Origin: Gordonia terrae
Lineage (GTDB): Bacteria > Actinomycetota > Actinomycetes > Mycobacteriales > Mycobacteriaceae
Reading direction: 5' to 3'
Length of the DNA: 64,000 nt
Assembly: GCF_001698225.1 (NCBI RefSeq)
Contig: NZ_CP016594.1
Span: forward strand, 5,456,001-5,520,000
Shown here: positions 3,585 through 26,351 of the stretch, piece by piece
How positions within the stretch are numbered: the stretch's first letter is position 1
How the letters are laid out: each line of letters begins with the position of its first letter
The notes under the pieces: model-generated
What the model was told of the DNA's origin: nothing
Databases searched by the model: none
The model's input: only the letters and a program-made list of their open reading frames with translations
Program-made: the position numbers and the translations under genes

Positions 3585-4211
3585 ATGAACGACCTGGCGA
3601 TCAACCTCTCGGCACCGACGACCGCAACGGACGAGCTGGTGGGGCTCGTGATCAAGGGCATGTACCGGGGTCCGGTGAATCCTGTGATGCAGGAGGTCAT
3701 CGACGCGGGTCATGCCGTCGCGAAGGGGCCCATGGTGATGCCGACTCCCGCCGGCATCGCCGAGGCCGGTCGGCTCGTCCGACTCCCCGAGGGTGGCGAT
3801 CAGGAACAGGCGATGATGGACTTCTTGCGCGCGTTCCTCCCGGTCAACCGCAGGCTCCGCGAGCTGTGCACCGCGTGGCAGTGCCGGCCCGACGGGTCCG
3901 CGAACGACCACTCCGACGCGCAGTACGACGCCCGGATCCGAGACCAGCTCGACGACATCCACACCGAGGTGTCCAAGTTCCTGCGTCGCTCGGGCAAGGC
4001 CGCCCCCGAGCTGCTCGACCACCGCGACCGTCTCCGCGTCGCGCTCGAACGCTTCGACGACGGGGACACCGCGTCCCTCACCTCTCCGCTCACCGACGGC
4101 TATCACACCGTGTGGATGTGGCTGCATCAGCACGTACTCATGCTGCTCGGCCTCACCCGCGCACAGGACGAGGCCCTCGAAGAGGAGCTCGTCGCGGGCG
4201 CGGCCGGATGA
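3585..4211 (+). CDS. Uncharacterised protein coupled to the PPDK-like gene
   Basis: 208 residues from ATG 3585. I do not recognise a family. The sequence is mostly helical and charged, with no signal peptide or membrane segment. Features worth noting are an N-terminal DELVGLVIKGMYRG region and a central acidic helical stretch, DARIRDQLDDIHTEVSKFL. Its stop overlaps the start of the PPDK-like gene in an ATGA, so the two are translationally coupled, which suggests a partner subunit or a small accessory protein of that enzyme. The third phenylphosphate-synthase subunit of Thauera is a precedent for a small accessory protein, but no sequence similarity is claimed. Confidence 0.75.
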   Translation: MNDLAINLSAPTTATDELVGLVIKGMYRGPVNPVMQEVIDAGHAVAKGPMVMPTPAGIAEAGRLVRLPEGGDQEQAMMDFLRAFLPVNRRLRELCTAWQCRPDGSANDHSDAQYDARIRDQLDDIHTEVSKFLRRSGKAAPELLDHRDRLRVALERFDDGDTASLTSPLTDGYHTVWMWLHQHVLMLLGLTRAQDEALEEELVAGAAG

Positions 4212-6751
4212 CCCTCTCCGACAGCGCGGTGCACACCCTCACCCGGATCGCGGTACCCCACGGTCAGGGACGGGCACGCGGACTCGGCGCGGCGGAACTC
4301 GGCGTCCACGGGGTCGAGATGGACAACCTCGTCGGTCTCGGCCTCCCGGTCGTGCCCGGCCTGACGATCCCGGTCGGGGCGGGCGAAGAGCTCGCCAACC
4401 GCGAGACCGCCGGGGTCGCCATCGACCTGTTGGAGAAGCTCGCCGTTCGCGGCATCTGGCCCGCCGTCCGCACCGAGCGGCGCCCCATGCTGATGCACCT
4501 GAGATGCAGTGCGGCGGTACCGGTGTCGGCTCTTCCGCCAGCCATCTCGGTGATCGGCTTGTCCCCGCGCAACGTCGACGCCCTCGTCGACGTGATCGGC
4601 CGTGATCGCGACATCTACGACTCGTGGGCCGAGACGCTCCGGTTCATCGCGGAGAACGCACTCGGCGTCGACGCCGACGACCTCGACGACGTGGTCGACG
4701 ATCATTCCGACAGCCGCGCACGCGTTCCGGCTCTGCTCGATCTCATCGTGGACGCGACGGGGGTCGCCTTCCCGGCCGACCCGGCCGAACAGCTCGGGCT
4801 CGCCGCCAAGGCGATGCTGACCCGGTGGGCGTCACCGCGCGGGCAACGGGCGCGCAAGGCGTTGTCGCTGCCCGACGATCTCGGCATCGCGCTTCACCTC
4901 CGCGCCCTTCGTCTGGGTTCATGGAACGAGTCGGGCTATGGATCGGCGGTCAGCCGTGACCTCGAGACCGGCAGGTACTCCCCGAGTGGGGTGTTCCACC
5001 TCGGCGTGCGCCGCACCGATCCCGAGCCCGGCCCCGGTGAGCCGCTGGGCGCGATGCCCGGTGGCACGGCCATCCTCGACCAGATCTTCGCCACACTCGA
5101 ACCTCATCTGCGCGGCGTCGCGCAGGTCGAGTTCGAGGTTCGCGACCGCCAGCTGGCACTGCTCAGTGCAGGTGCTGTCGAACACCCCGGACCCCGGGCG
5201 ATCACCACTCTCGCCGTCGATCTCGTCAACGACCATGCCATCGGCCGTCGCGAGGCCGTCGCGATGCTCGACCCGGACCTGATGCAGGACCTCCTCCATC
5301 CGCAGATCAAGCTGACCGGTGGCGAACAGCTCGTCGCGCGTGGCCTGCCCGCGTCGCCGGGCGCGGCGACCGGCGAGATCGCACTCAGCGCCGACACCGC
5401 GCTGCAGTGGGCTGCGCAGGGCCGCAACGTGATCCTGGTGGCTTCCGAGACCAGCCCGGCCGACGTCCCCGCACTTCTCGCGGCCACCGCGGTCCTGACC
5501 TCGAACGGCGGACTGGCGTCGCATGCGGCCGTCGTCGCGCGAGGCGCCGGGCGTCCGGCGGTCTGCGGCGCCACCGACCTGCGCATCGATCGTGCTGCCG
5601 GGACGGTGACGAACGGCGACCTGACACTCACCGAGGGTGAGGTGGTGTCCCTCAACGGACGCACCGGTCACGTCTACCGCGGCGCGGTCACCATCCGCCC
5701 CGCCGAACCCTCGGCCGAGCTCGACCGGCTGCTCGGCTGGGCCGACGACATCCGCCGTCTCGGAGTGCGCGCCAATGCCGACAACGCCGAGGACGCAGCG
5801 ACCGCGTTCCGCCTGGGCGCCGAGGGAATCGGCCTGTGCCGCACCGAACATCAGTTCCTGGGCGACCAGTTGCCGCTCGTCCAGCGACTCGTGCTCGCGG
5901 AATCCGACGCCGAGGAACTCGACGCCATCGCCGCCCTGACCGCCGCGCAGCAGGCCGACTTCACCGAGCTGCTGCGCGTCGTCGGAGACCGGCCCATCAC
6001 CGTCCGGCTGCTCGACGCGCCACTCCACGAGTTCCTCCCCGCCGACGGCGACTACCGCGACGAGGCGCAGGCGCGACGTGCCGCCGACGCACACGAGTCC
6101 AATCCGATGCTCGGTCTCCGCGGCGTGCGGTTCGCGATGGTTCAGAAGCGTCTGTATCCCGCTCAGGCCGAGGCACTGTTCCGCGCCTGGGTCACCGTGC
6201 ACGCCGACGGATCGACCCCGCAGTTGGAGGTCATGATCCCACTGGTGTCGCTGCCCGGCGAGCTCTCGCGCGCGATCGCGCAGGTGCACGAGGCGGCGGC
6301 CGCCGTGACCGCCGACACCGGGGTGATGGTGCCCTACAAGGTGGGCAGCATGGTCGAGACGCCACGCGCGGCGCTCCTCGCCGGGTCACTCGCCGAGGAC
6401 GCCGACTTCCTGTCCTTCGGCACCAACGACCTCACCCAGCTCACCTACGGCTTCTCGCGCGACGATGTCGAGAAGTCTATGCTGACGCACTATCTCGAGC
6501 ACGGCCTGCTCTCCGACAGTCCGTTCGCGGTCCTCGACCCCGACGGGGTCGGCGCCCTCGTGTCCCGGGCGGTGTTGCTCGCCCGCAGTACCAAACCCGA
6601 CATCAAACTCGGGGTGTGCGGTGAGCACGGCGGTGACCCGTCGTCGATCGACTTCCTGAACTCGGTCGGCCTGCACTATGTGTCGTGCTCACCTCGACGG
6701 GTCCCGGTGGCCCGTCTGGCCGCCGCCCGTGCGGTGCTGACCGCTGACTGA
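4208..6751 (+). CDS. PPDK/PEP-synthase-like phosphotransferase with eroded ATP-grasp domain
   Basis: 847 residues from ATG 4208; pyruvate phosphate dikinases are near 875. Three regions can be read. Residues 1-370 correspond to the ATP-grasp: the N-terminal MDNLVGLGLPVVPGLTI aligns, but the SMPGMMDT loop is replaced (VSALPPA) and the QTR segment that holds ATP-site Gln and Arg in dikinases reads LALLSAGAVEHP. Residues 378-465 are the swivelling phosphohistidine domain with SNGGLASHAAVVARG, the acceptor being His439. Residues 490-847 are the PEP/pyruvate barrel with GIGLCRTEH (540-548), NPMLGLRGVRF and CGEHGGDPSS, including the catalytic Cys. It could accept phosphate from PEP, but ATP use is doubtful. 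It is followed 10 nt later by the acyl-CoA dehydrogenase gene. Confidence 0.88.
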   Translation: MTLSDSAVHTLTRIAVPHGQGRARGLGAAELGVHGVEMDNLVGLGLPVVPGLTIPVGAGEELANRETAGVAIDLLEKLAVRGIWPAVRTERRPMLMHLRCSAAVPVSALPPAISVIGLSPRNVDALVDVIGRDRDIYDSWAETLRFIAENALGVDADDLDDVVDDHSDSRARVPALLDLIVDATGVAFPADPAEQLGLAAKAMLTRWASPRGQRARKALSLPDDLGIALHLRALRLGSWNESGYGSAVSRDLETGRYSPSGVFHLGVRRTDPEPGPGEPLGAMPGGTAILDQIFATLEPHLRGVAQVEFEVRDRQLALLSAGAVEHPGPRAITTLAVDLVNDHAIGRREAVAMLDPDLMQDLLHPQIKLTGGEQLVARGLPASPGAATGEIALSADTALQWAAQGRNVILVASETSPADVPALLAATAVLTSNGGLASHAAVVARGAGRPAVCGATDLRIDRAAGTVTNGDLTLTEGEVVSLNGRTGHVYRGAVTIRPAEPSAELDRLLGWADDIRRLGVRANADNAEDAATAFRLGAEGIGLCRTEHQFLGDQLPLVQRLVLAESDAEELDAIAALTAAQQADFTELLRVVGDRPITVRLLDAPLHEFLPADGDYRDEAQARRAADAHESNPMLGLRGVRFAMVQKRLYPAQAEALFRAWVTVHADGSTPQLEVMIPLVSLPGELSRAIAQVHEAAAAVTADTGVMVPYKVGSMVETPRAALLAGSLAEDADFLSFGTNDLTQLTYGFSRDDVEKSMLTHYLEHGLLSDSPFAVLDPDGVGALVSRAVLLARSTKPDIKLGVCGEHGGDPSSIDFLNSVGLHYVSCSPRRVPVARLAAARAVLTAD

Positions 6752-6761
6752 GAGGTTCACC

Positions 6762-7832
6762 ATGACAACCGAACTCGACGACCTGAGATCGGCGGTCCGC
6801 GACGCCGTCGATTCCCTGGGCGGACCGTCGGTGTGTCGTGGCCTGGCGCCGGACGGCCCGGGCTGGGATGGACGCTCGTGGTCGCTGCTCGCCGAGCAGA
6901 TCGGTGTCGCCGCGCTCGGACTGCCCGACGAGTGCGGTGGACTCGGTGGTCTGCCCGAGCTCCTCGTCGTGGCCGAGGAGCTGGGCGCCGGCGTGATGCC
7001 CGTCCCCTTCCTGTCGACGGTGCTGGCTTCGCAGGTGCTCATCCGGTCCGGTGGCGCCGACGACGCGCTGGCGCAGATCGCCGAAGGTGCACCGGCAGCC
7101 TTCGTCGGCCTGGACCGGCACGGCTGGTTCGATGCCGACGACATCGCATTCGCCGTCGATGCCGGCTCCGGGGAGCAGACGATCAGTGGTGTCGCGACCT
7201 CGGCGCTGGGTGCTGCGGGTGCGGCATGGCTGGTCGTGGCGGCACGAACCGACACCGGTGTCGCACTGTTCCTCTGCGACGCAACGGTTCCCGGAGTGTC
7301 GATCACCCCGCTGCCCACCCTCGACCTGTCCCGGTCGCACGCCGCGGTGACGCTGTCCGGGGTGCCTGCGCGTCGACTCCCGGTGGCGGGCTCGCCGGAG
7401 TCGGCGATCGTGGCGGCGCTCGACGTCGCGTGCCTGGTCCTGGCAGCCGAGCAACTCGGCGGGGCCCAGCGCAGCCTCGACCGGACGGTCGACTACGTCA
7501 AGGAGCGCAGGCAGTTCGACCGCGCGATCGGCAGTTTCCAGGCCGTGAAGCACACGCTCGCCGACCTGCTGGTGCTGGTCGAGTCGTCCCGGTCGGCTGT
7601 CACCCGCGCCCTCGACTCCGCCGACCTCGCCGAGGCGGCCTCCCTGGCCCGCGCCTGGTGTGCCGACAGCTACCGCACGGTCACCGCCGAGGCCCTCCAG
7701 CTGCACGGCGGCATCGGCTTCACCTGGGAACACGACTCACATCTGTACTTCCGCCGGGCCCGCGCCGACGCACAGCTGTTCGGTACCAGTACCTTTCACC
7801 GGGAGCGGATCGCCCTGACGTTGGGTTGGTGA
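6762..7832 (+). CDS. Acyl-CoA dehydrogenase, short subunit
   Basis: 356 residues from ATG 6762 with GAGAGG upstream. The FadE pattern is clear: AALGLPDECGGLGGL early, a C-terminal helical bundle with DYVKERRQFDRAIGSFQAVKH, and LHGGIGFTWEHDSHLYFRRA. Aligned on the medium-chain enzyme, the position of the catalytic Glu in the IYEGTSQ motif is Phe here (QLFGTST). That is typical of the short subunits of heteromeric dehydrogenases such as those of steroid side-chain degradation. It probably pairs with the 420-residue dehydrogenase encoded convergently at 8399-9661. It desaturates an acyl-CoA using FAD; the substrate is unknown. Confidence 0.9.
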   Translation: MTTELDDLRSAVRDAVDSLGGPSVCRGLAPDGPGWDGRSWSLLAEQIGVAALGLPDECGGLGGLPELLVVAEELGAGVMPVPFLSTVLASQVLIRSGGADDALAQIAEGAPAAFVGLDRHGWFDADDIAFAVDAGSGEQTISGVATSALGAAGAAWLVVAARTDTGVALFLCDATVPGVSITPLPTLDLSRSHAAVTLSGVPARRLPVAGSPESAIVAALDVACLVLAAEQLGGAQRSLDRTVDYVKERRQFDRAIGSFQAVKHTLADLLVLVESSRSAVTRALDSADLAEAASLARAWCADSYRTVTAEALQLHGGIGFTWEHDSHLYFRRARADAQLFGTSTFHRERIALTLGW

Positions 7833-7840
7833 GCCCCCTG

Positions 7841-8096
7841 GAGGTGCGAGCGAAGCCCCACTTCTCCCTGAGGTGCGAGCGACAAACCCCCCTGCTCCCT
7901 GAGGTGCGAGCGAAGCGCCCCTCTGCTCCCTGAGGTGCGAGCGACGAACCCCCCTGCTCCCTGAGGTGCGAGCGACGAACCCCCCTGCTCCCTGAGGTGC
8001 GAGCGACGAACCCCCCTGCTCCCTGAGGTGCGAGCGACGAACCCCCCTGCTCCCTGAGGTGCGAGCGACGAACCCCTCTGCTCCCTGAGGTGCGAG
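7841..8096. repeat. Tandem array A, about nine units of 31 bp
   Basis: GAGGTGCGAG recurs at 7841, 7870, 7901, 7932, 7963, 7994, 8025, 8056 and 8087. After the first 29-bp step every spacing is exactly 31 bp. The units are nearly identical, each with head CTGCTCCCTGAGG and a C-rich tail. There are no variable spacers, so this is not a CRISPR array. It begins immediately after the stop of the short acyl-CoA dehydrogenase. Confidence 0.9.
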
Positions 8097-8181
8097 CGAA
8101 GCGAGCCACGAAGGGCTCGCGAGGTACCTCACCAGGCCCTTCGAGGCTCGTCGCTATCGCTCCTCGCACCTCAGGGAGCAG
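8078..8181. repeat. Large hairpin joining the two arrays
   Basis: Bases 8078-8096 and 8163-8181 form a perfect 19-bp inverted repeat (CTGCTCCCTGAGGTGCGAG and its complement). The 66-nt interior contains further complementary stretches, including CGAAGGGC with GCCCTTCG. It can fold into a long branched stem between two convergent genes, so a terminator or mRNA-stabilising role is plausible. Confidence 0.75.
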
Positions 8182-8398: not shown

Positions 8399-9661
8399 TC
8401 AACGCCGGTCGCGGGCCGAGAACGGACGATCCTTGTCCGCACGGGGTTCCGGCGGCAGGCCGAGCACCCGTTCACCGATGATGTTGCGCTGGATCTGATC
8501 GGTACCGCCCGCCAGTCGGTACCCGGGGCTGCCGAGCAGGTGCTCGGTCCACGCGAACCGACTCGGGTTGGTCTCGACCGCGATGTCGTTGCCCAGCAGA
8601 TCCGCGGCGATCTCACCGATCTTCACGAGAACATCGGACGCCATCAACTTGCCGACGGAAGCAGCGGGACCGGGTGACCGGCCGGCGGCGGCGGCACGCG
8701 CCACCCGATCGGCGGTGGCCTTACGCAATTCCGCCCGGATGTAGACGTCGGCGAGCTGCTGGCGGACGACCGGATCCCCGGCGGCCCCGACCTGTTGCGC
8801 CAGTCCGACCAGTTCGTCGACCGAGCCGCCCTTCTTGCGGGTGACCGATCCAGAAGCGGTCCGTTCGAAAGACAGTGTCGCACCGGCGATCTTCCACCCC
8901 TGGCCGATGTCACCGAGACGGGCGGAGTCCGGGATACGGACGTCGTTCAAGAAGACCTCGTTGAACGACGCCCCGCCGCTCATCTGTCGAATCGGCCGGA
9001 TCTCGACACCGGGCGCGTCCAGCGGGATCAGGAACGCGGTGATGCCCTTGTGTTTCGGCAGATCGGGGTCGGTCCGGGCGAGCAACATGCCGAGATCCGC
9101 GAAGCGTGCGCCTGAGGACCAGACCTTCTGACCGTCGATGCGCCAGCCGTCGCCGTCGCGGACGGCCCGACAGGACAGGGAGGCCAGGTCGGAACCGGCT
9201 CCCGGTTCGCTGAACAGCTGACAGGCGAGGAGATCCGTACGCAGCAGTGGCCGCGCATAGGCCTCGCGCTGTTCGTCGGTGCCGAACATCGCGACCGCAG
9301 GACCGACCAGTCCGGTGGTGACACTGATCAGTTCGGTCGACGGGGGCACGTCGAACTCGAGTTCGGCGCGGGCCACCTCCGACGCATACGACGCGGGCAG
9401 GCCCCGCCCCCCGTGCTCGGCGGCGAGTGTCACTGCGCCGTACCCGGCGTCGTAGCGCTTGCGCCGGTACTCCCTCGCCGCATCGAGCAGCCGGCGCTCC
9501 TCGTCGTCGGACAGGTTGCGGAACACCGCGAGATCGGCGGGCCCCGACGGGGTTGCCGACTTGCGTTCCGCGATCCCGGAGAGCCATTCGCGAACCTCGG
9601 TGCGGAACACCGCGAGGTCCGACCCACCCGGGTCCGTGGGCGACAGTGCGGGTGCCGACAT
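8399..9661 (-). CDS. Acyl-CoA dehydrogenase, long subunit
   Basis: 420 residues from ATG 9659-9661 with GGAGGT upstream; a longer frame extending to 9847 overlaps the neighbour and lacks conserved sequence. The FadE pattern includes ACQLFSEPGAGSDLASLS for FAD/substrate binding, DGWRIDGQKVWSSGARFADL and the C-terminal GGTDQIQRNIIGERVLGLP. The position of the catalytic Glu of the medium-chain enzyme is Gly (LAGGTDQ), so the base must lie elsewhere, as in long-chain or heteromeric enzymes. It is the last gene of a six-gene operon (14763 to 8399) and the likely partner of the 356-residue dehydrogenase. Confidence 0.93.
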   Translation of the reverse strand: MSAPALSPTDPGGSDLAVFRTEVREWLSGIAERKSATPSGPADLAVFRNLSDDEERRLLDAAREYRRKRYDAGYGAVTLAAEHGGRGLPASYASEVARAELEFDVPPSTELISVTTGLVGPAVAMFGTDEQREAYARPLLRTDLLACQLFSEPGAGSDLASLSCRAVRDGDGWRIDGQKVWSSGARFADLGMLLARTDPDLPKHKGITAFLIPLDAPGVEIRPIRQMSGGASFNEVFLNDVRIPDSARLGDIGQGWKIAGATLSFERTASGSVTRKKGGSVDELVGLAQQVGAAGDPVVRQQLADVYIRAELRKATADRVARAAAAGRSPGPAASVGKLMASDVLVKIGEIAADLLGNDIAVETNPSRFAWTEHLLGSPGYRLAGGTDQIQRNIIGERVLGLPPEPRADKDRPFSARDRR

Positions 9662-9672
9662 CGGCAACCTCC

Positions 9673-10836
9673 TCAGACAGTCAGAACCGTGCACGCCGAC
9701 AGTCCCGGCGCGCCATAGACATGTGTGAAACCGACCTTCGGTGCGCCCGGCACCTGTTTGCCCTCGGCACGACCCTGCAGCTGGCGGACCACCTCGTGCA
9801 CCTGGCGTAGCCCGGACGCACCGATCGGCTCGCCGTTGGCGAGACAACCGCCGTCGGTGTTGATCGGTGTGGCCCCGTCGACAGCGGTTGCGCCAGAGCG
9901 GATCAGCTCAGCCTGTTCGCCGTGCCCACACAGCCCGGTCTCGGCGAGGTGGATGATCTCCGAACCGCTGTCGGTGTCCTGCACCTGTGCGACGTCGACG
10001 TCGGACGGGCCGACCCCCGCTGTCGCGAAAGCAGCTGCCGCGGCGTCGATGCTGGGGCTGTGCACCGGGTTGGTGGTCAGCCACGGCGAGAACACCTCGA
10101 AGGAACCGAAGCGTCGTGTCCGCACCTCCGCGGCCGCGAGCCGGACGGGCTTGTCGCACATGTCCGCGGCGCGGTCGCCGGACGCGAGGATCAGGGCGAC
10201 ACCGCCCTCCCCCGGCGAGCAGAACATGTATTGGGTCAGCGGGCTGTTCACCGGCGCCGCCGCCAGGATCTCGGCCTCGGTCAGGGGTTTACGACGCCAC
10301 GCCATCGGGTGCGCGGCGCCATTGGCGAATGCGCGCTCGGCGGCCGCTCCGAGCAACGACTCGTCGAGCCCATGGACGTGAAAGTACCTGCGCGTCTTCA
10401 TCGCGAAGTACTGGGTGGTGACCATCATCCCGGACCGGGCGTACCAGGGTCCGAGCCCGTACGCGGCCGGGTCGGAACCGAAGGCCCCACGTTCGTGCTT
10501 GTCGAATCCGACGACGGCCACGACGTCTGCGCGTCCGGACGTGATCATGTCGGCTGCGGTCGCCAGCGCGACACCGCCGGTGGCGCAACCGTTCTTGACG
10601 GTGACGAAGGGAATGCCCGTGAGGCCGAGTCGCGAGACGAGCGAGTCCGGCTTGCCCGACACATTGCTACCGCCGACGGCCGCGTCGATCGAGGACCAGT
10701 CGAGGCCGGCGTCGGCGAGGGCCGCGCGTAGCGCGCTCTCGCCCATGTCCATGCCGCTGACGTCGCCGTGCCGGCCGAAGGCATGCATTCCGACCCCGAC
10801 GATGTGGACGCCTGCAGCCCTTCTACCGGCGCTCAT
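9673..10836 (-). CDS. Thiolase-fold lipid-transfer/aldolase-like protein
   Basis: 387 residues from ATG 10834-10836, overlapping the DUF35 stop in an ATGA. The fold is that of SCP2-type thiolases: VHIVGVGMHAFGRH at the N-terminus, VKNGCATGGVALATAADM with the thiolase Cys position, and PINTDGGCLANGEPIGASG in the C-terminal half. Proteins of this type that are encoded beside a DUF35 partner, such as Ltp2 with ChsH2 in steroid side-chain breakdown, act as retro-aldolases rather than classical thiolases. That role is inferred here from the neighbouring gene. It most likely shortens a beta-hydroxy or beta-keto acyl-CoA made by the dehydrogenases. Confidence 0.88.
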   Translation of the reverse strand: MSAGRRAAGVHIVGVGMHAFGRHGDVSGMDMGESALRAALADAGLDWSSIDAAVGGSNVSGKPDSLVSRLGLTGIPFVTVKNGCATGGVALATAADMITSGRADVVAVVGFDKHERGAFGSDPAAYGLGPWYARSGMMVTTQYFAMKTRRYFHVHGLDESLLGAAAERAFANGAAHPMAWRRKPLTEAEILAAAPVNSPLTQYMFCSPGEGGVALILASGDRAADMCDKPVRLAAAEVRTRRFGSFEVFSPWLTTNPVHSPSIDAAAAAFATAGVGPSDVDVAQVQDTDSGSEIIHLAETGLCGHGEQAELIRSGATAVDGATPINTDGGCLANGEPIGASGLRQVHEVVRQLQGRAEGKQVPGAPKVGFTHVYGAPGLSACTVLTV

Positions 10837-11222
10837 CCGGCGACCTTCTCGAACGCGAAAGTGGTGCAGTCGCCGAGATCGAGCAGTCGCAGTTCGACCT
10901 CGTCGCCGATCCGGACCGGTGACGTCACGCGCGACTCCACCAGGACGACGCCCAGATCGACGTAGGCCACGACGAAGGGCTGGAAGCCCGAGTCGGGAAC
11001 GCGGAACGGGGGTTTCGGCGCGAAGGCCTGCTCCGTCCATGTCCACACCGTTCCGCGCTGCGGTAGCGCGACCCGCGACACCGATGTGCCGGCACAGCCG
11101 GGACAACGCGTCACGGCCGGGAACGCGACAACCGCGCACTCCGCGCAGTCCGATCCGGCGAGTACCGGCGGATCGAGCTGCGCGAACAGTGTGTCGTCGA
11201 CAACCGCTGACACCTCCGTCAC
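10833..11222 (-). CDS. DUF35 zinc-ribbon/OB-fold partner of the thiolase-like protein
   Basis: 129 residues with the rubredoxin-like zinc ribbon near the N-terminus (CAEC, then CPGC) followed by an OB-fold with GTVWTWTEQAFAPKPPF and FVVAYVDLGVVLVESRV. DUF35 proteins bind acyl-CoA and complete the active site of a neighbouring thiolase-fold protein. It overlaps the E2 gene (ATGA at 11219-11222) and the thiolase-like gene (ATGA at 10833-10836), so all three are translationally coupled. The four Cys for zinc are present. Confidence 0.92.
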   Translation of the reverse strand: MTEVSAVVDDTLFAQLDPPVLAGSDCAECAVVAFPAVTRCPGCAGTSVSRVALPQRGTVWTWTEQAFAPKPPFRVPDSGFQPFVVAYVDLGVVLVESRVTSPVRIGDEVELRLLDLGDCTTFAFEKVAG

Positions 11223-12664
11223 GCCCCCGAGAGCAGGGTGAGTGGACGGCCGAGGATCTCACCGACCGTGCGCAGGTACTCCGCCGCGGGAGCACCGTCG
11301 ACCGCGCGGTGATCGAAGGTGAGACTCAGCGTGAGCACCTGCGTACGCACCGGTGTGTCTCCGTCCCAACGGAATCCGTCCTTCACCCGGCCCACGCCCA
11401 GTATCGCGACGTTGCCCGGGTTGATGACCGGGGTGAAGAAGTCCACTCCGTAGGCACCGAGGGTGCTGACCGAGAAGGTGGCACCCTCGAGGTCGGCGAG
11501 CCCGAGCTTCCCGTTGCGTGCAGCAGCGGCCAGTTCGGCGGTGTTGCCTGCTATCTCGCCGACCGACAGCTGATCGGCGTCGCGGACGACCGGCACCACG
11601 AGACCTCCGCCGACAGCGACGGCGACGCCGATGTCGACACGCTCGGCCACCACGATCTGGTCGTCGACGATCCCGGCGTTGAGCAACGGGTGCTCGCGAA
11701 GCGCAAGCGCCGCGGCCCGGATGATGAAGTCGTTGAGACTCGGCGCTCGACGCCCCGCGGCGGCCGACTCCCCCTTGAGCGCGGCGCGCACCGCGACGAG
11801 GTCGGTGACATCGACTTCGTATCCGTGGGTGAGCTGCGCCATGGAGTGCAGGCTGTCCATCATGTTCCGGGCGATGGCACCGCGCATACCACGCAGCGGG
11901 ATCACATCACCGGGTTGCGGACCGACCGACGCCGAATCCGGCGCGGCAGCAGAGGTGTCTGCGGCGGAACGGGATCGACCTGTGGCGGCGCGTTCCACGT
12001 CGGCGCGGGTGACCCGGCCACCGATCCCGCTGCCACTCACGGTCGCGAGGTCCACCCCGAGTTCGGCGGCGAGTTTGCGGACGACCGGACCCACGAATGT
12101 CGCGGCACTCCCCGGCGCCGCGCCGGCAGACGGCGCCGACGAGGAAGCCTCCGGACCGGAGGGTTCTGCCTGCGGGCGCGCGAGGAAGTCCTCGACATCC
12201 TCGGACACGATCCGACCACCGGGCCCTGTCCCGGTGAGACGGCGCAGGTCGACGCCGGCCTCGGATGCGACGCGGCGAGCGTTCGGGGATGCCTTGAGCC
12301 GGGCGCCGTCGGTCGCGGTCGCCTCCGTGGGGGTGCCGGCAGGTGTCGCCTCCGGTGTGCTCTCGGGTGCGGTCGTCGACTCGGAATCGGGTGCGGTGGG
12401 GGTGGATCCACCGTCGGGCGCGGATTCACCGTCGGCGAGGAGCCAACCGACCACGGACCCGACCGGCAGCACCGCACCGTTCTGCGCATTGGTGGCCAGC
12501 ACACCTTCGGCCTCTGCCTCGACATCGACGTCGACCTTGTCGGTCTCGACCCGGAACAGAGTGTCGCCCAGGGCGACCCGCTGTCCGGGTTGGGCGACCC
12601 ACTCCCCGATGACACCTTCCTGCATGGTGAGCCCGAGTTTGGGCAGCACGATCTGGAAGGCCAC
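11219..12664 (-). CDS. E2 dihydrolipoamide acyltransferase of a 2-oxo-acid dehydrogenase complex
   Basis: 481 residues from a GTG at 12662-12664 with AAAGGA upstream. Domain order: one lipoyl domain (1-77) with lipoyl-Lys43 in ETDKVDVDVEAE; an Ala/Pro/Thr-rich linker; two peripheral-subunit-binding domains, ASPNARRVASEAGVDLRRL (125-161) and GPVVRKLAAELGVDLATVSG (192-228); a second linker; and the catalytic domain from about 255 with the FDHRAVDG active site (His452, Asp456). Two binding domains are unusual; most E2 chains have one. It transfers the acyl group made by E1 to CoA. It follows E1beta by 2 nt and precedes the DUF35 gene with an overlap. Confidence 0.95.
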   Translation of the reverse strand: MAFQIVLPKLGLTMQEGVIGEWVAQPGQRVALGDTLFRVETDKVDVDVEAEAEGVLATNAQNGAVLPVGSVVGWLLADGESAPDGGSTPTAPDSESTTAPESTPEATPAGTPTEATATDGARLKASPNARRVASEAGVDLRRLTGTGPGGRIVSEDVEDFLARPQAEPSGPEASSSAPSAGAAPGSAATFVGPVVRKLAAELGVDLATVSGSGIGGRVTRADVERAATGRSRSAADTSAAAPDSASVGPQPGDVIPLRGMRGAIARNMMDSLHSMAQLTHGYEVDVTDLVAVRAALKGESAAAGRRAPSLNDFIIRAAALALREHPLLNAGIVDDQIVVAERVDIGVAVAVGGGLVVPVVRDADQLSVGEIAGNTAELAAAARNGKLGLADLEGATFSVSTLGAYGVDFFTPVINPGNVAILGVGRVKDGFRWDGDTPVRTQVLTLSLTFDHRAVDGAPAAEYLRTVGEILGRPLTLLSGA

Positions 12665-12666
12665 GA

Positions 12667-13707
12667 TCAGTTCCTTTCCAGGAGTCGCCGGGCACCGGCG
12701 ACGATGCGATCCGCGTCGGGCACGTACGCCTTTTCGAGCGGCGTGCTGAACGGGACGGGTGTGAACGGAGCACCGATCCGCAGCACGGGCGCGTCCAGGT
12801 GGTCGAATGCCTCCTCCTGGATCTGCGCCGCGACCTCGGCGCCGATGCCGCCGAACGTGACCGCCTCGTGGACCACGAGGATGCGGTTGGTCTTACGCGC
12901 CGACTCGACGATCGTCGCGGTGTCGAGCGGCTGCACCGACCGCGGGTCGATGACCTCGGCGGAGATCCCCTTCTCGGCCAACGCGTCGGCCGCCTTGAGG
13001 GCCTCGGCGACCATCCGGCCGAACGCGACGATCGTCACGTCGTCACCGGTGCGGGCGACAGCCGCCTCCCCGATCGGGATCTCGTAGACTTCCTCGGGGA
13101 CTTCCCCGCGCGAACCTAGCAGCACCTTGTTCAGCATGAAGACGACGGGGTTGTCGTCGCGCACCGCGGAGACGATGAGGCCCTTGGCATCCCGTGCATT
13201 CGACGGCATGACGACCTTGAGTCCCGGCGTGTGGGCCAACCAGGACTCCAGGCTCTGCGAGTGCTGCGCCCCCGCGCTCACCCCGGCGCCGTAGGCGACG
13301 GCGATGACCATGGGCACCTTGACCTCGCCGCCGTACATGAACTTCATCTTCGCGGCCTGGTTCACGACCTGGTCGAGGGCGACGGCGAGGAAGTCCATGA
13401 ACATGATGTCGACGATCGGGCGCAGGCCACGAGCCGCCGCACCGACACCGAGGCCGATCAGACCCATCTCGGCGATGGGTGTGTCGACCATGCGGCGCTT
13501 GCCGAACTCGGCGAGCAGACCGTCGTACATGTGGAAGACGCCGCCGTATGCGGCCACGTCCTCGCCGATCACGAAGACGTTCTCGTCTTCGCGCATCACC
13601 TGCGCTACACCCTCGTTGAAGGCCTTCACGTAGGTGGTCGACCGCGCTGCCGGAGCCGCGTTGTCTGCGCCTGATTCTGTTGCGATGGTTTCTGTTGCAG
13701 TGGACAT
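12667..13707 (-). CDS. E1 beta subunit, 2-oxo-acid/acetoin dehydrogenase
   Basis: 346 residues from ATG 13705-13707. The transketolase-like pyrimidine-binding half contains VFVIGEDVAAYGGVFHMYDG with the Glu that activates thiamine diphosphate, then MVDTPIAEMGLIGLGVGAA and FMDFLAVALDQVVNQAAK. The C-terminal half has VIDPRSVQPLDTATIV and VVHEAVTFGGIGAEVAAQI. It is a standard-length beta subunit and pairs with the alpha subunit encoded 18 nt upstream. The pair resembles acetoin dehydrogenase and related branched-chain-type E1 enzymes rather than the single-chain AceE. Confidence 0.95.
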   Translation of the reverse strand: MSTATETIATESGADNAAPAARSTTYVKAFNEGVAQVMREDENVFVIGEDVAAYGGVFHMYDGLLAEFGKRRMVDTPIAEMGLIGLGVGAAARGLRPIVDIMFMDFLAVALDQVVNQAAKMKFMYGGEVKVPMVIAVAYGAGVSAGAQHSQSLESWLAHTPGLKVVMPSNARDAKGLIVSAVRDDNPVVFMLNKVLLGSRGEVPEEVYEIPIGEAAVARTGDDVTIVAFGRMVAEALKAADALAEKGISAEVIDPRSVQPLDTATIVESARKTNRILVVHEAVTFGGIGAEVAAQIQEEAFDHLDAPVLRIGAPFTPVPFSTPLEKAYVPDADRIVAGARRLLERN

Positions 13708-17223: not shown

Positions 17224-17906
17224 CCACGACGTCGACATCCGTTCCCCCGACCCCCGTCGATGCCGCTCCTGCCCCGGATGCCCCTCGCACGAACGCCCCT
17301 CGCACGGACGTCCCAGACACGATCGCCGCCGCGAGCAAGATCATCCTCGTCCGCCATGGTCTCCCCGGCGGGCCGGCCGGGCCGGACCCCGGCCTCGGCG
17401 ACGAAGGCGTCGGCCAGGCCCGCCGACTCGGCACCTGGCTGCGAGGCCTCCCGGTTGTACAGGTGGTGGCGAGCTCGTACACGCGCGCCTATGAGACGGC
17501 ACGTCACGCGGCCCAGCCGCTCGGTCTCGAGGTCACGGTCGACGAACGCCTCCGCGAGTGGGAGAGCGACCGCGCGGTCTACGCCACTCCGGAGGCCATC
17601 GCCGCCACCGACCGTGGGCGGGCCTTCGCCGAGGGCCGCTACGACGACTTCATCCCCGACTACGACCGGAACGCCACCGCGGCCCGGATGCGGGATGCGG
17701 TCCTCGACGCGGCGCGCTCGGCTCCCGGCGAGCTGTCGGTGCTGGTCTCCCACGGTGGGGCCATCAACACACTCCTCACCGACATCCTGCAGGCACCGTC
17801 GCCGTTCTTCTTCAATCCCGCCTACACATCGGTGAGCCGGGTCGCGGTCCTCGGTTCGGGCCGCATGGTCATCCAGTCGGTGAACGAGACAGCACACCTC
17901 GGCTGA
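17220..17906 (+). CDS. Histidine phosphatase family protein (second of three)
   Basis: 228 residues from ATG 17220. A 38-residue Pro/Ala/Thr-rich, probably unstructured N-terminal tail precedes IILVRHGLPG. The second catalytic His is in VLVSHGGAINTLLTDI. Both this protein and the first contain an NPAYTSVSR/NPAYTSVAR segment and a closing VNETAHL/VNDTAHL, so they are tandem-duplication paralogues. Translation is coupled to the upstream gene by a 4-nt overlap. Whether both are active on the same compound cannot be told. Confidence 0.87.
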   Translation: MTTTSTSVPPTPVDAAPAPDAPRTNAPRTDVPDTIAAASKIILVRHGLPGGPAGPDPGLGDEGVGQARRLGTWLRGLPVVQVVASSYTRAYETARHAAQPLGLEVTVDERLREWESDRAVYATPEAIAATDRGRAFAEGRYDDFIPDYDRNATAARMRDAVLDAARSAPGELSVLVSHGGAINTLLTDILQAPSPFFFNPAYTSVSRVAVLGSGRMVIQSVNETAHLG

Positions 17907-18868: not shown

Positions 18869-19882
18869 TCAGTTCAGTGCGACCAGCATCTTCCCGACGT
18901 TGCCACCCTCCAGCATCGACAGGAACGCCTCCACCGCGTGGTCGATGCCGGTGTGGATGGTGGACTCGGCTACGAGGTCGCCGGCGGACAGCCACCCGAG
19001 CACACGTTCCTCGAACTCGGGACGTAGGTCCTCGTGATCACGAACGATGAACCCGGTCAATGTGATCCGCTTCAGGATGGCCTGCATGAGGTGGTCCATC
19101 GACGGTCCGTCCCCACCGCCGGCGGAGATCATCCCGCACATCGCGACGCGTCCGTTGAGGCGCAGATCGTGCAGCGCGGCGACGAGGTGCTCCCCGCCGA
19201 CATTGTCGAAATAGAGATCGGTGCCGTCGGAGACCCGGCGCAACCCGGCGGCCACCGACTCGGAGCGGTAGTCGATCGCCGCGTCGAAGCCCAGACGCTC
19301 GGTCAGCAGCGCCACCTTCGCCGGTCCACCCGCGCTACCGATGACGCGCCCGGCGCCGAGAAGTTTCGCGAACTGTCCGGCCGCACTTCCGACCGCGCCC
19401 GCAGCGGCCGAGACGAACACGTCGTCCCCCGGACGCAGACCACCGGCACGCAGCAGTCCGCAGTAGGCCGTGAACCCGGGCTGTCCGAGCACGCCGAGCC
19501 AGTGGTGCAGATCGACGCCGCGCGGATCGATGACGGTGGCCGCGTCGGCATCGACGACGGCCAGTTCGCGCCAGCCGAGCCGGTGCCGCACACACGCACC
19601 GTCGGGGATGCGTGAGTTGCCGCGGACGACGATGCCGATCGCCGAGCCGTCGAGCGGCGCATCCTCCTGGAAGCTCGTGGTGTAGTGCATCTCCGAGGTG
19701 CCTAGGCGCCCGCGCATCGAGGGGTCGACGCTCATGAAGCGGTTCTCCACGACGATCTGGTCGTCGCGGACGGGCCCCAGCTCGGCCTCCCGGACCTCGA
19801 AGTTCTCCGTGCGCGGAACCCCGTCGGCGGGTCGCTGCTTCAGGAACACCGCACGTGTGGTCGTCTCGACCCCGCTCGTCAT
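18869..19882 (-). CDS. NADP-dependent MDR-family oxidoreductase (CurA/prostaglandin-reductase type)
   Basis: 337 residues from ATG 19880-19882, overlapping the upstream gene stop. It belongs to the zinc-free medium-chain reductases: VENRFMSVDPSMRGRL, the cofactor loop AAAGAVGSAAGQFAKLLGA, LYFDNVGGEHL, and LTGFIVRDHEDL near the end. These enzymes reduce the double bond of alpha,beta-unsaturated ketones or aldehydes. It is co-transcribed with the phosphohistidine-domain protein at 19879-21603, which suggests consecutive steps on the same metabolite. Confidence 0.92.
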   Translation of the reverse strand: MTSGVETTTRAVFLKQRPADGVPRTENFEVREAELGPVRDDQIVVENRFMSVDPSMRGRLGTSEMHYTTSFQEDAPLDGSAIGIVVRGNSRIPDGACVRHRLGWRELAVVDADAATVIDPRGVDLHHWLGVLGQPGFTAYCGLLRAGGLRPGDDVFVSAAAGAVGSAAGQFAKLLGAGRVIGSAGGPAKVALLTERLGFDAAIDYRSESVAAGLRRVSDGTDLYFDNVGGEHLVAALHDLRLNGRVAMCGMISAGGGDGPSMDHLMQAILKRITLTGFIVRDHEDLRPEFEERVLGWLSAGDLVAESTIHTGIDHAVEAFLSMLEGGNVGKMLVALN

Positions 19883-21603
19883 GACAGCTCCAGGATGGTG
19901 ACCGTGCCCTTGGAGCCGTCGACCTCGACCAGCGTGCCGTCGGGGATTCTCCGGGTGGCAGCGGGAACACCGGCGGCACAGGGTATCCCGAGCTCGCGGC
20001 TGACGATCATCGCGTGCGAACCCATCGCTCCGACGTCGGTGATGGCGGCCGAGGACACCATGAACAACGGCGTCCAGGACGGATCGGTCTGCGGCGCCAC
20101 CAGGACCTCGTCCACCTCGAAGCTGTCGAGGTCGTCCATCGATGTGATGGTCCGGGTGCGTCCGCGGACCACGCCCGGGGATGCCCCGGACCCGTGCAGG
20201 ACCTCACCCTCGGTCACCTCATCCACCTCGACCTGGTCCTTGCGGCGCAGACTCGAGAGCGGGGGAAGCGGCTCACGGGTGTCGAGGAAGGTCGGCAGGT
20301 CCAGACCGAACAGGCCCTTCCACGCCCGATGCCGTTCGGCAAGGGTCTCGGTCAGTGCGGCCGGTTCGCCGGCCAGGAGGTCCAGCTCGTCGTCGACGGC
20401 CATGAAGACGTGATCGGCAGCGGCGAGATGACCCTGCTCGTGCAGCCGTCGCCCGAGCTCGGCCAGCGGCACACGCGCCTCGTGCAACACCTTGATGCAG
20501 TTCGTCTTCGCACGTTCGCGCCAGGCCGCGAAGCGTCGTGCCGAGGCGAGCGCCGCGTCGAGGGTCGCCTGCCCCTCCGCGTCGTCGCCGACGATCGCAC
20601 GCGCCCGTTCCAGGGCCGAGTCGGTGTCCCCCGCGTGCTCGGCGAGACGCGCGGTGGGTGACGCCGAATCCTCCTGCAAGCGCAGGCGGTCGATGAGTCC
20701 GAGCACCAGTTCGGGTTTGGTCTCCCACGATGTCGAACCGAGGTCCCATTCGTTGGGGCCCCGGTAGCCGAACTCGGCGATGAAGTCGGCGAAGGAGGCG
20801 TCGAACTTGGGATCGAGCCCGCGCACCCGCGCCGCGACGCCGTCGATTCCCTGGTCGAATGCCTCGGTCAGGCGCTCGTCGGCGCGCACCATCCGGCCCA
20901 ACTCCCAGAGCGCGAACGACGGCAGCGCCGAGTCGACGTCGCCCGCCGAGCCCACCAGCGTGACGATGAGGTCCTGGTTGTCGGCTCCGAGAAGCTGGCC
21001 GAGCACCGACGGGCCGACCGCCGCCCCGTTCGTCGCGGCCACCTCACCCCGCCATGCGGCCCGCTCGAGGGGCATGACCGACCGCGCGCGAGCGACGAGC
21101 GCGACCGGGGTCAGGCTCGACAGGTCGGGGCGCTCGGTGCGCAGCCGATCGGCGAGCACGCGGTCCTCGTCGAGTTCTGGGAAGGTCTCGGTGGACAGAA
21201 TCCAGGCGTTGCGCGCGGCCAGGCGCGCACTGGCGTCGGCGTTTTCGTCGTCGGGGTGTCCGACGTACTCGGGGATGTCCGGATCGCCGCCGTAGAACAA
21301 CTGATCCACGAGCTCGACCGACAGACCGCCGCGGATTCCCACGAGCCGCGACATCGACAGGTTGATGTACAGATGCCCGTAGAAGATCCCCGACGAGGCG
21401 GCCACATCCGGCTTCTCCACGAGCGAGTAGCTCCCGTGGAAGGCGTAACCGGCGTTCCATCCGGGCAGGATGTTCTGAATCCACCCGAGGTCGGCGCCCA
21501 GCGGCGTGATGGGATCGGACAGCACATCGCTGGCATTGAGCCGCGTGTAGATGGGTAGACGGGCACTCGGTTCGGTGTCGACCAACCAGCGCTGTTCGGA
21601 CAT
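19879..21603 (-). CDS. PEP-synthase-type phosphohistidine protein lacking an ATP-grasp domain
   Basis: 574 residues from ATG 21601-21603. The chain starts at the linker region that in rifampicin phosphotransferase and phenylphosphate synthase PpsA follows the nucleotide domain (RLPIYTRLNASDVLSDP, ITPLGADLGWIQNIL). A long helical central part contains FADFIAEFGYRGPNEWDLGS and HLAAADHVFMAVDDELDLL, the latter typical of RPH/PEP-synthase proteins. The C-terminus is a mobile phosphohistidine domain, GSGASPGVVRGRTRTI and GAMGSHAMIVSRELGIP, with acceptor His530. No ATP-grasp and no PEP barrel are present, so the phosphate donor must be another protein. It is first in a two-gene unit with the MDR reductase. 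Confidence 0.85.
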   Translation of the reverse strand: MSEQRWLVDTEPSARLPIYTRLNASDVLSDPITPLGADLGWIQNILPGWNAGYAFHGSYSLVEKPDVAASSGIFYGHLYINLSMSRLVGIRGGLSVELVDQLFYGGDPDIPEYVGHPDDENADASARLAARNAWILSTETFPELDEDRVLADRLRTERPDLSSLTPVALVARARSVMPLERAAWRGEVAATNGAAVGPSVLGQLLGADNQDLIVTLVGSAGDVDSALPSFALWELGRMVRADERLTEAFDQGIDGVAARVRGLDPKFDASFADFIAEFGYRGPNEWDLGSTSWETKPELVLGLIDRLRLQEDSASPTARLAEHAGDTDSALERARAIVGDDAEGQATLDAALASARRFAAWRERAKTNCIKVLHEARVPLAELGRRLHEQGHLAAADHVFMAVDDELDLLAGEPAALTETLAERHRAWKGLFGLDLPTFLDTREPLPPLSSLRRKDQVEVDEVTEGEVLHGSGASPGVVRGRTRTITSMDDLDSFEVDEVLVAPQTDPSWTPLFMVSSAAITDVGAMGSHAMIVSRELGIPCAAGVPAATRRIPDGTLVEVDGSKGTVTILELS

Positions 21604-23410: not shown

Positions 23411-24826
23411 TCAGGCGTGCGCGTGCAGCGGCTTGCCGGCCAGGGCCAGATGGGCTTCGCCGAGCGCCTCGGCCTGGGTCGGGTGCGCGTGCACCAGGTT
23501 CGCGACGTCGTTCGCGTTCGCTTCCCAGTTGTAGATGAGCTGCGCCTCGCCGATCAGTTCACCCACACGGTCCCCGACGAGGTGGATGCCCACCACCGGA
23601 CCGTCGGCGCCCGCCCGGATCAGCTTGACGCCACCCGCGGTCTGCAATATGCGACTCTTCCCGTTGCCGCCGAGATCGTAGACGGCGGTGGTGATCTCAC
23701 CGTACCGTTCCGCCGCCTCCGCTTCGGTCAGGCCGACGGAGGCCACCTCCGGATGCGAATAGGTCACCCGCGGGATTCCGGTGTCCGCCACGGGCGCGCA
23801 GTCGAGGCCGGCCAGCTGTTCGGCGACGAAGATGCCGTTGCCGAAACCGCGATGGGCGAGTTGAGGTCCCGGCACGATGTCGCCGATCGCGTAGACGCCC
23901 GGCACTGCGGTCTGCAACCACTCGTCGACCACGACGAAGCCACGATCGAGTCCCACACCGGCCTCTTCGAGACCCAATCCGGCAGTCCGCGGTCCCCGAC
24001 CCACGGCCACCAGCAGAACGTCCGCATGCAGTGGCGCTGACTCGTTGTCGAGCTCGACGACCACTCCGGACTCGGCGGTGCCGGCGGACGACACCATGGC
24101 CCCGGTACGAATGGTGATGCCACGCTTGCGGAACGCCCTGGTCAGTTGCTTCGACGACCACTCGTCCTCGGTCGGCAACAACCGGGGTGCGGCCTCCACG
24201 ACCGTGACCTCCACGCCGAGCGATGCCCACAGACTGGCGAACTCGCAACCGATGACACCCCCGCCGAGGACGATCGCGGTCATGGGGATCGAATCGAGCT
24301 CCAGCGCACGGTCGCTCGTCATGATCGGGCCGCCGATCTCCACGCCCGGCAGGGTCCTCGACTGGGAACCGGTCGCGATGACCAGGGCCTCACCGTGGAC
24401 GCGGGTCGTCCCGCCGTCGGTGAGCTCGACGTCGACGGTCCGCTCACCCGATACCCGTCCGAGCCCGCGGACCACCCGGATCCGACGCGACGAGATGAGA
24501 CCCTCGAGCCCTCGGTACAAGCCGTCGACGACCTTCTGCTTGTACGCGTGGACTGCGGTGATGTCGATGCCGTCGAGAGACGCCTTGATCCCGAAATCTG
24601 GGGCGTGACGCACGGATTCGGCGATACCGGCGGCATGGAGCAACGCCTTGGTCGGGATGCACCCGTTGTGTAGACATGTGCCGCCGAGCTTGTCGGACTC
24701 CACGAGGACGACCGACATGCCGAGCTGCGCTGCGCGCAGAGCACACGAGTAACCACCCGACCCGCCTCCCAGGACGACGACGTCCACAGTCTCGGTCGTG
24801 CCGGTCTTCTCCGGGTCCGTGCTCAT
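23411..24826 (-). CDS. E3 dihydrolipoamide dehydrogenase
   Basis: 471 residues from ATG 24824-24826. FAD site GGGSGGYSCALRAAQLGM, redox-active disulfide GGTCLHNGCIPTKALLH, NAD site VLGGGVIGCEFASLWASLG, second FAD motif YAIGDIVPGPQLAH, and the dimer-interface pair in VHAHPTQAEALGEA (His/Glu) are all intact. It reoxidises lipoyl groups and is the obvious E3 for the E1/E2 set 9-14 kb away, since the E1/E2 operon lacks one. It starts 1 nt after the upstream SDR stop. Confidence 0.96.
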   Translation of the reverse strand: MSTDPEKTGTTETVDVVVLGGGSGGYSCALRAAQLGMSVVLVESDKLGGTCLHNGCIPTKALLHAAGIAESVRHAPDFGIKASLDGIDITAVHAYKQKVVDGLYRGLEGLISSRRIRVVRGLGRVSGERTVDVELTDGGTTRVHGEALVIATGSQSRTLPGVEIGGPIMTSDRALELDSIPMTAIVLGGGVIGCEFASLWASLGVEVTVVEAAPRLLPTEDEWSSKQLTRAFRKRGITIRTGAMVSSAGTAESGVVVELDNESAPLHADVLLVAVGRGPRTAGLGLEEAGVGLDRGFVVVDEWLQTAVPGVYAIGDIVPGPQLAHRGFGNGIFVAEQLAGLDCAPVADTGIPRVTYSHPEVASVGLTEAEAAERYGEITTAVYDLGGNGKSRILQTAGGVKLIRAGADGPVVGIHLVGDRVGELIGEAQLIYNWEANANDVANLVHAHPTQAEALGEAHLALAGKPLHAHA

Positions 24827-24827
24827 G

Positions 24828-25589: not shown

Positions 25590-25643
25590 GTCGGGTCCTT
25601 CGTGTCGTGTCGGTGATCAGGTCGGTGGATGACTGTCGAGGGG

Positions 25644-26351
25644 CTAGAGATTCATCGCCCCGACGGAGGTCTGGAAGTCGAGGACGTGGCCGAAGTCGTT
25701 GATCGACTGGACGGCACGTCGGGTGTCGGCGCCGCGGAGCACGCTGACCGAGGTGTGGTGGACGCGGACGGGCATGTCGAAACCGCTCGCGAGCGCGTCC
25801 GCGAGTACCGCGTTGATGACGCCGCTGTGGCACGTGATGACCACCCGCTGGCCGAGATGGGCGTCGACGATGAGCCCGACCTCACCGAGTACCCGCTCGC
25901 GGAAGGCCACCGGATCCTCGGCGTAGGGGAACGCCTCATATTTGCGAGTTCGGATGTGGTCGCGGAAGATTCGCGAGATCTCCTCGTGGGGCAGCGTCTC
26001 GAAAGGCGATTGATCTGCCGGAAAGCTCTGCCACGGCTCGTATTCGGTGAGCCCCTCGCGGACGACCGGCTCGAGGCCGTGATGCTCGGCGATCGCACGG
26101 CCGGTGTCGAGGGCCCGGCGCAGTGGAGAGCTGTAGACGGCGTCGACGGCATGGGTGGACAGACGCTGGGCGACCGCCCGGACCTGACGTTGCCCGAGCT
26201 CGGAGAGCGGCGGGTCCACGGTCTGCGCCGCGCTCAGTTCCTTGCTGAGGGCCTGCTCGCCGTGCCGGATGAGCACGAGCTCGCACAAGCCGTCCAGCGG
26301 GGCGAACGGGTTGTCGAGGTCGATCGAGCGCGCACGGGTCTGATTGGGCAC
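25644..26351 (-). CDS. Histidine phosphatase family protein (third of three)
   Basis: 235 residues from a GTG at 26349-26351, with GGGGG upstream. LVLIRHGEQALS holds the catalytic RHG, SSPLRRALDTGRAIAE the phosphate-binding Arg, and VITCHSGVINAVLADAL the second His. It is more distant from the two paralogues at 16573 and 17220 than they are from each other, but shares the closing IND-FGH pattern in place of VNDTAHL. It heads the minus-strand operon to the E3 and ThuA genes. A GTG start and the lack of a better one make the first residues uncertain. Confidence 0.87.
   Translation of the reverse strand: MPNQTRARSIDLDNPFAPLDGLCELVLIRHGEQALSKELSAAQTVDPPLSELGQRQVRAVAQRLSTHAVDAVYSSPLRRALDTGRAIAEHHGLEPVVREGLTEYEPWQSFPADQSPFETLPHEEISRIFRDHIRTRKYEAFPYAEDPVAFRERVLGEVGLIVDAHLGQRVVITCHSGVINAVLADALASGFDMPVRVHHTSVSVLRGADTRRAVQSINDFGHVLDFQTSVGAMNL

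Follow-up and report, generated by a model that had tools for sequence, protein, structure and literature searches.

A putative PEP-driven phosphotransfer system in Gordonia terrae, with a PPDK derivative that lacks the ATP site and a separate RPH-like acceptor protein

In PMC12167813, HpeHI, CreHI and PpsAB are presented as two-component dikinases in which the component other than H binds ATP. HpeHI is stated there to convert ATP to AMP and to lack the phosphoenolpyruvate (PEP)-binding fold of pyruvate phosphate dikinase (PPDK), and HpeH alone transfers phosphate between phosphophenols. HpeD of the Hpe pathway is NagD-like according to PMC9618137. The PPDK derivative VadK (Rv1127c) is described in PMC13400623 as a regulatory histidine kinase that autophosphorylates on His422; its operon partner Rv1126c raises its solubility, and the two were separated with a 2 M salt wash. 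A single line of the same paper mentions two full-length PPDKs of mycobacteria that have no kinase motifs; these may belong to the protein family described here. This family, PPDKL, is encoded together with a small coupled protein, SMALL, and a second phosphohistidine protein, PPSAL, in a 64,000-nucleotide stretch (hereafter the window; NZ_CP016594.1, positions 5,456,001 to 5,520,000) of the single-contig, 5.70 Mb genome of Gordonia terrae. The best explanation of the data, to which we assign a probability of about 0.55, is that phosphate would move from PEP to His439 of PPDKL, from there to His530 of PPSAL, and finally to the hydroxyl group of an acceptor.

The locus shares with HpeHI, CreHI and PpsAB a separate H component, in which an acceptor domain resembling that of rifampin phosphotransferase (RPH) is combined with a swivel phosphohistidine domain, as well as a catabolic setting and, with the Hpe pathway, the presence of a phosphatase. 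It differs in that there is no separate ATP-grasp I component here, the PEP-barrel protein and SMALL seeming to be its replacement, and in that the phosphatases are histidine phosphatases whereas HpeD is NagD-like. The likeness to VadK/Rv1126c, drawn from architecture and not from sequence, consists of a PPDK derivative minus one of its two active sites, a phosphohistidine and a small coupled partner, but the loss is reversed, VadK having an ATP site and no PEP barrel. Enzyme I of the sugar phosphotransferase system (PTS) also combines a PEP barrel and a phosphohistidine without an ATP site, although the N-terminal half of PPDKL is a relic of the PPDK ATP-grasp domain. With regard to the HPr-binding insert in the phosphohistidine domain of enzyme I, the alignment of PPDKL with PPDK extends over its whole length. 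No relation between SMALL and HPr was recognised, though no search aimed at HPr was made. On the features examined, the system is neither a PPDK, nor VadK, nor an HpeHI-type dikinase.

ATP and PEP sites of PPDKL

The PPDKL of the window aligned with solved PPDKs from one end to the other (5jvn, query residues 18-843) and shares with them the phosphohistidine, which sits in the motif GGLASH, and the PEP site. It scored 678.5 bits against TIGR01828 (pyruvate phosphate dikinase), below the cut-off of 843.45. The only Pfam matches on the protein were PEP-utilizers and PEP-utilizers_C, with no match to PPDK_N.

To compare active-site residues, 16 actinobacterial PPDKs were aligned with 74 PPDKL sequences, which comprise the window gene and the genes of 73 of 78 loci and are not independent of one another. 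Short or partial sequences were left out of the counts (PPDKL of loci L056, L073, L091, L092 and L097; PPDK rows L021 and L027), and L089 was retained though aberrant, with a branch length of 3.53. The numbering and roles of the ATP- and PEP-site positions are those we take to hold for C. symbiosum PPDK. Whereas all six ATP residues were present in 15 of the 16 true PPDKs and five in the remaining one, PPDKL never held more than two (none in 54 sequences, one in 2, two in 18). K22, D321 and Q335 were retained in no PPDKL, R337 in 1, R92 in 18 and E323 in 19; the old ATP lysine position is now occupied by His (64/74) or Arg (10/74). In the window protein, two of the six positions are still occupied by R99 and E308. 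His439 and the six PEP-site residues R561, R617, E745, N768, D769 and C831 were present in all 74 sequences.

In the ATP half, PPDKL has retained 45 of 203 columns that are invariant in PPDK; the corresponding figures are 43 of 77 for the His domain and 125 of 189 for the PEP barrel. Mean column identity among the PPDKL sequences was 0.71 in the N-terminal half and 0.78 and 0.80 in the other two parts, and 37 positions of the N-terminal half are at least 95% conserved yet unlike PPDK, including R206, R214, H230, R268 and E310. Since this half is still conserved, it probably has a function, different from its former use of ATP. PPDKL formed a single group on the tree with a support of 100/100, and judged from these sequences the loss of the ATP site is a conserved trait of the family and not an oddity of the window. 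PPDKL has almost certainly lost the use of ATP, and it very probably uses PEP. The first-pass annotation of the window had already described a PPDK-like protein with His439, an intact PEP barrel and an eroded ATP-grasp domain, and each part of that description extends to the whole family, none of whose members was found to have an intact ATP site.

PPSAL, SMALL and their co-occurrence with PPDKL

His530 of PPSAL sits in the motif GAMGSH and was invariant in 44 sequences including that of the window; the only Pfam match was to the PEP mobile domain. The best fold match of the AlphaFold2 model (predicted local distance difference test, pLDDT, 90.6) was the Listeria rifampin phosphotransferase 5fbu (Foldseek E 9.2e-21, TMq 0.68). 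PPSAL matches the acceptor and swivel domains of RPH, which unlike PPSAL carries an ATP-grasp domain in its own chain, and matches to PPDK or pyruvate kinase spanned only ~110-130 columns. An acceptor plus swivel layout is also the one given for HpeH (PMC12167813), a comparison made by architecture and not by sequence. Going by the predicted model, 'HpeH/RPH-type acceptor component' describes PPSAL better than 'PEP-synthase', the label it had in the first-pass annotation; the phosphohistidine and the lack of both ATP-grasp and PEP barrel noted there stand. A second gene of the PPSAL type, with 42-43% identity to the first, ends ~5 kb before the window (genome 5449245-5450960; L033:13212-14960). 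It lies between genes named from their translations as pyruvate carboxylase-like and luciferase-like oxidoreductase.

The stop codon of SMALL overlaps the start codon of PPDKL (ATGA), and the two frames overlap in 68 of 77 loci. The predicted model reads as an N-terminal winged helix followed by a helical bundle, and the annotations of some relatives name a MarR-family or other regulator. Eight residues (N107, H109, D111, Y114, D115, H174, W177 and H181) were invariant in 56 sequences of SMALL and its relatives, the window's included, which hints at a role beyond DNA binding. The His/Asp set H109, D111, H174 and H181 is invariant in both PPDKL-linked and VadK-linked relatives; a phosphocarrier or metal site is possible.

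PPDKL was detected in 1 of 36 other genomes of the genus. In a sample of 246 genomes of the class, SMALL (E<=1e-57) was found in eight and PPDKL (at least 50% identity) in the same eight; the next PPDKL matches listed were ordinary PPDKs of at most 45% identity. PPSAL homologues (E<=1e-60) were present in 13 of the 246, namely all eight genomes with PPDKL and SMALL versus 5 of the other 238 (Fisher p 4e-12, uncorrected for relatedness; the eight span four families). All 80 genomes found by way of SMALL, several of which are also positives of the class sample, carry a PPSAL homologue at the same threshold. A homologue lay within 35 kb of SMALL in 71 of 73 genomes examined, at a median distance of 14 kb. 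This count accepts any PPSAL homologue, includes L115 and L116, omits seven of the 80 loci (L056, L072, L074, L083, L087, L088 and L091) and takes contig identity from coordinates, so that short contigs of metagenome-assembled genomes (MAGs) may give false neighbours. PPDKL and PPSAL are very probably a functional pair. The coupling of the small protein and the co-occurrence of the two larger ones, the former noted and the latter put forward as a check in the first-pass annotation, were thus both found. In Streptomyces, Frankia, Rhodococcus, Williamsia, Dietzia and other genera, PPDKL relatives at present bear the label 'putative PEP-binding protein' or 'pyruvate, phosphate dikinase'.

Related loaders, ATP-grasp proteins and gene neighbourhood

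Of 15 fetched loci in which a SMALL relative occurs in the absence of PPDKL, 13 contained a VadK-type loader, directly adjacent in nine. The 16 VadK-type rows of the alignment, which represent 12 distinct genes since five rows are the same window-genome gene, retained K22, R92, E323, Q335 and R337 in 16/16 and D321 in 13/16, and had no PEP barrel except for one row that extends into the R561 column. A system of this type is present in the window genome (L034:6228-16501), with a 617-amino-acid (aa) PPSAL relative, a SMALL relative, an acyl-CoA ligase, an aldehyde dehydrogenase and an ATP-grasp and His protein without PEP barrel. Two Rhodococcus plasmids carry VadK-type loaders in the company of acyl-CoA ligases and PEP-utilizing enzymes; biotin carboxylase genes are also present in the one case and a P450 in the other, a setting reminiscent of the Hpe pathway as outlined in PMC9618137. 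On the Rhodococcus oxybenzonivorans plasmid pRB98 (L196), a SMALL relative overlaps a 'pyruvate, phosphate dikinase' gene, and short PEP-utilizing proteins, biotin carboxylase subunits, an OB-fold protein, a thiolase and a phosphatase are also encoded; this is possibly a carboxylating phosphophenol pathway.

In the window genome, the PEP mobile (swivel) domain was found seven times: in PPDKL, PPSAL, the second PPSAL-like protein, the 617-aa third PPSAL-like protein, the 503-aa VadK-type protein, a 905-aa PEP-synthase-like protein and a 649-aa frame that, from its pattern of matches, may be PTS enzyme I. A PPDK_N search of this genome revealed no separate ATP-grasp protein of I-component size. 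PPDK_N was also sought in two sets of genomes carrying both PPDKL and PPSAL, of 20 and 22 entries, with three genomes entered twice (G157/G093, G294/G096 and G309/G113, the same by identical coordinates) and two entries searched twice. No PPDK_N match (E<=0.001) was obtained in six of the 22, five named isolates and one MAG (G070, G071, G074, G075, G076 and the MAG G137; the genomes of loci L046, L047, L050, L051, L052 and L113), and the same search matched 13 of 14 control genomes. These six genomes have 23 swivel domains, four in each isolate and three in the MAG, which belong to the PPSAL type, to PPDKL and to one further protein each, the last being on another contig or, in G074, ~340 kb away. 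As far as these searches reveal, PPDKL is therefore left as the only linked candidate donor for PPSAL in the six genomes. Five of eight separate ATP-grasp genes were fetched, and each directly adjoins a different H-type frame (615-750 aa) that resembles PPSAL mostly towards the swivel end. Pairs of an ATP-grasp gene and an H-type neighbour (L200-L204) occur in MAG genomes that also hold the PPDKL system and are candidate uncharacterised HpeHI-like kinases.

The genes of the window region are presented in Table 1. Homologues were found in the 78 PPDKL loci for ACAD356 (at least 45% identity, 64 loci), THIO (at least 55%, 59 loci), the E2-like protein (at least 45%, 63 loci) and E1 beta (at least 60%, 60 loci). 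The three histidine phosphatases recognised in the first-pass annotation all scored above the Pfam cut-off, and each has an RHG motif and a second candidate catalytic His, which together we take to be the catalytic motif. Genes for a 2-oxoacid dehydrogenase are found repeatedly near PPDKL (window 11219-14763; L077, L081 and L085), even at MAG loci whose examined flanks gave no acyl-CoA dehydrogenase match. The complex might consume the pyruvate that would be freed from PEP by PPDKL. The interval between the ACAD356 and ACAD2 genes contains two tandem arrays (7836-8367), with 8.5 and 6.2 copies of units of 31-32 bp, and a DnaB-like helicase frame with an apparent intein interruption, as judged from translation alone, lies at 48342-50942.

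Table 1 Features of the PPDKL-PPSAL region, in window positions.
Feature	Position	Strand	Remarks
SMALL	3585..4211	+	208 aa; predicted winged-helix and helical-bundle protein (AlphaFold2 mean pLDDT 92.5)
PPDKL	4208..6751	+	847 aa; PPDK-derived, ATP site lost, His439 and PEP barrel kept
His439 codon	5522..5524	+	computed from gene start 4208 and residue 439
ACAD356, acyl-CoA dehydrogenase	6762..7832	+	3' of PPDKL, same orientation; family scans
ACAD2, second acyl-CoA dehydrogenase	8399..9664	-	best family pimC_large, below cut-off
THIO, thiolase / lipid-transfer-like	9673..10836	-	family scans
ChsH2 C-terminal type OB-fold protein	10833..11222	-	PF01796
2-oxoacid dehydrogenase E2-like	11219..12664	-	judged from translation alone
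2-oxoacid dehydrogenase E1 beta	12667..13707	-	NF006667, above cut-off
2-oxoacid dehydrogenase E1 alpha	13726..14763	-	TIGR03182, below cut-off
LIG, AMP-forming acyl-CoA ligase	14991..16550	+	family scans
Histidine phosphatase HP1	16573..17223	+	PF00300; RHG motif
Histidine phosphatase HP2	17220..17906	+	PF00300; RHG motif
Alkenal/curcumin-reductase-like dehydrogenase	18869..19882	-	NF058644, below cut-off; start overlaps PPSAL stop
PPSAL	19879..21603	-	574 aa; acceptor-binding and swivel domains with His530; no ATP-grasp, no PEP barrel
Dihydrolipoamide dehydrogenase-like	23411..24826	-	judged from translation alone
Histidine phosphatase HP3	25644..26351	-	PF00300; RHG motif

Proposed phosphate route and its alternatives

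In the proposed route, which is the most economical one, PEP bound in the C-terminal barrel of PPDKL would phosphorylate His439 with release of pyruvate, the phosphate would pass to His530 of PPSAL, and the PPSAL swivel domain would ferry it to an acceptor in the RPH-like helical domain. Direct transfer from PPDKL to PPSAL is somewhat more likely than not; the PPSAL swivel might instead dock directly at the PPDKL barrel, and the data fit both arrangements alike. SMALL would accompany the loader in stoichiometric amounts, as seems to be the case for its VadK-linked relatives, with a probable role in docking or relay. The acceptor would be a hydroxyl, most likely phenolic or enolic, on a catabolic intermediate or substrate, 'phenolic' being perhaps apt by analogy with HpeHI alone. 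One or more of the histidine phosphatases would strip the phosphate once tagging or trapping is done.

Several observations weigh against this route. PPSAL and PPDKL are encoded on opposite strands, ~13 kb apart and non-adjacent. The five class-sample genomes with a PPSAL homologue and no PPDKL belong to one family and have weaker SMALL relatives, and L115 and L116 are VadK-type systems with a PPSAL homologue and no PPDKL. Only 34 of the 80 SMALL-found genomes have a PPSAL homologue of at least 48% identity; in the other 46 the best homologue is 38-42% identical, much like the copy that precedes the window (43%), and in two of these (G116 and G121) it is partial. SMALL relatives occur without a PPSAL homologue in 29 of the 42 genomes having any SMALL relative, which counts against a fixed three-part unit. 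The regulatory role proposed in the VadK paper implies that PPDKL could also phosphorylate proteins. No transfer was observed: we infer every movement of phosphate, the acceptor, and what SMALL and the phosphatases do. Loading by PEP and not ATP, and a phosphate route through two proteins, as suggested in the first-pass annotation, are partly supported by the sequences. Of the refuting conditions named in that annotation, sequence could address two, an intact ATP-grasp and a lack of co-occurrence, and neither was borne out.

A regulatory PEP sensor is an unlikely alternative in which phosphorylated His439 would report PEP/pyruvate status to SMALL or to enzymes of the pathway, as has been suggested for VadK and the methylcitrate enzymes, with PPSAL as a separate kinase. 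It would suit the resemblance of the predicted SMALL N-terminus to a winged helix, the regulator annotations of some relatives, the description of VadK as a regulatory histidine kinase (PMC13400623) and the SMALL relatives without PPSAL homologues. It fits poorly with PPSAL homologues in 8/8 PPDKL genomes versus 5/238 others and with six genomes lacking a PPDK-type ATP-grasp domain for PPSAL, and the overlap of SMALL with the PPDKL start would be expected of a subunit no less than of a regulator. That PPDKL acts alone, its former ATP-grasp domain now being an acceptor site so that phosphate would pass from PEP through His439 to a metabolite in one chain, is rather improbable. The conservation of the N-terminal half, with its 37 non-PPDK positions, and the replacement of the ATP lysine by His or Arg agree with such a site, but PPSAL, with another donor and target on this account, would then be left without a known donor in the six genomes, and its co-occurrence with PPDKL would be unexplained.

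Slightly less probable still is that PPSAL is charged with ATP by a VadK-type or PEP-synthase-type protein encoded elsewhere, or by an ATP-grasp family that PPDK_N misses, PPDKL being a side enzyme of pyruvate/PEP exchange. The characterised H components discussed in PMC12167813 are ATP-charged. Two further PPDK_N proteins of the window genome (the 905-aa and the 503-aa VadK-type protein) could charge PPSAL in trans, and some PPDK_N protein was found in 18/20 and 16/22 pair-carrying genomes, both of which also tell against the proposed route. The six genomes without PPDK_N oppose such charging, as do the five fetched ATP-grasp genes, each adjoining another H-type protein. Reverse flow, in which a phosphorylated metabolite would charge PPSAL and then PPDKL so as to form PEP from pyruvate and save energy, is scarcely credible: PPDK is reversible (PMC13400623) and HpeH alone moves phosphate between phosphophenols (PMC12167813), but a catabolic setting with phosphatases and a ligase would seem to offer no obvious high-energy phosphorylated substrate.

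Building on the proposed route, a PTS-like catabolic phosphorelay may tentatively be envisaged, in which one loader (PPDKL with SMALL) would charge several acceptor-specific PPSAL paralogues by His-to-His transfer. It would have arisen by loss of the ATP site from a PPDK, VadK-type proteins having kept ATP and lost PEP, so that power sources would be exchangeable on one chassis. On the proposed route, the system would behave as a cross between enzyme I and HpeH. Its parts are of known kinds; their combination and, for a two-component small-molecule kinase, the power source were not found in the open-licence literature searched.

If correct, the proposed route would explain HpeH-like proteins in genomes without a PPDK-type ATP-grasp domain and would give a role to proteins annotated as 'putative PEP-binding protein' or 'pyruvate, phosphate dikinase'. 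It would provide a defined two- or three-protein system that could be reconstituted from purified parts. Uptake or trapping of a growth substrate would be linked to the state of glycolysis, in the way that sugars are through the PTS, and, should the PTS-like relay hold, the sugar PTS would be joined by another PEP-driven small-molecule phosphotransferase system.

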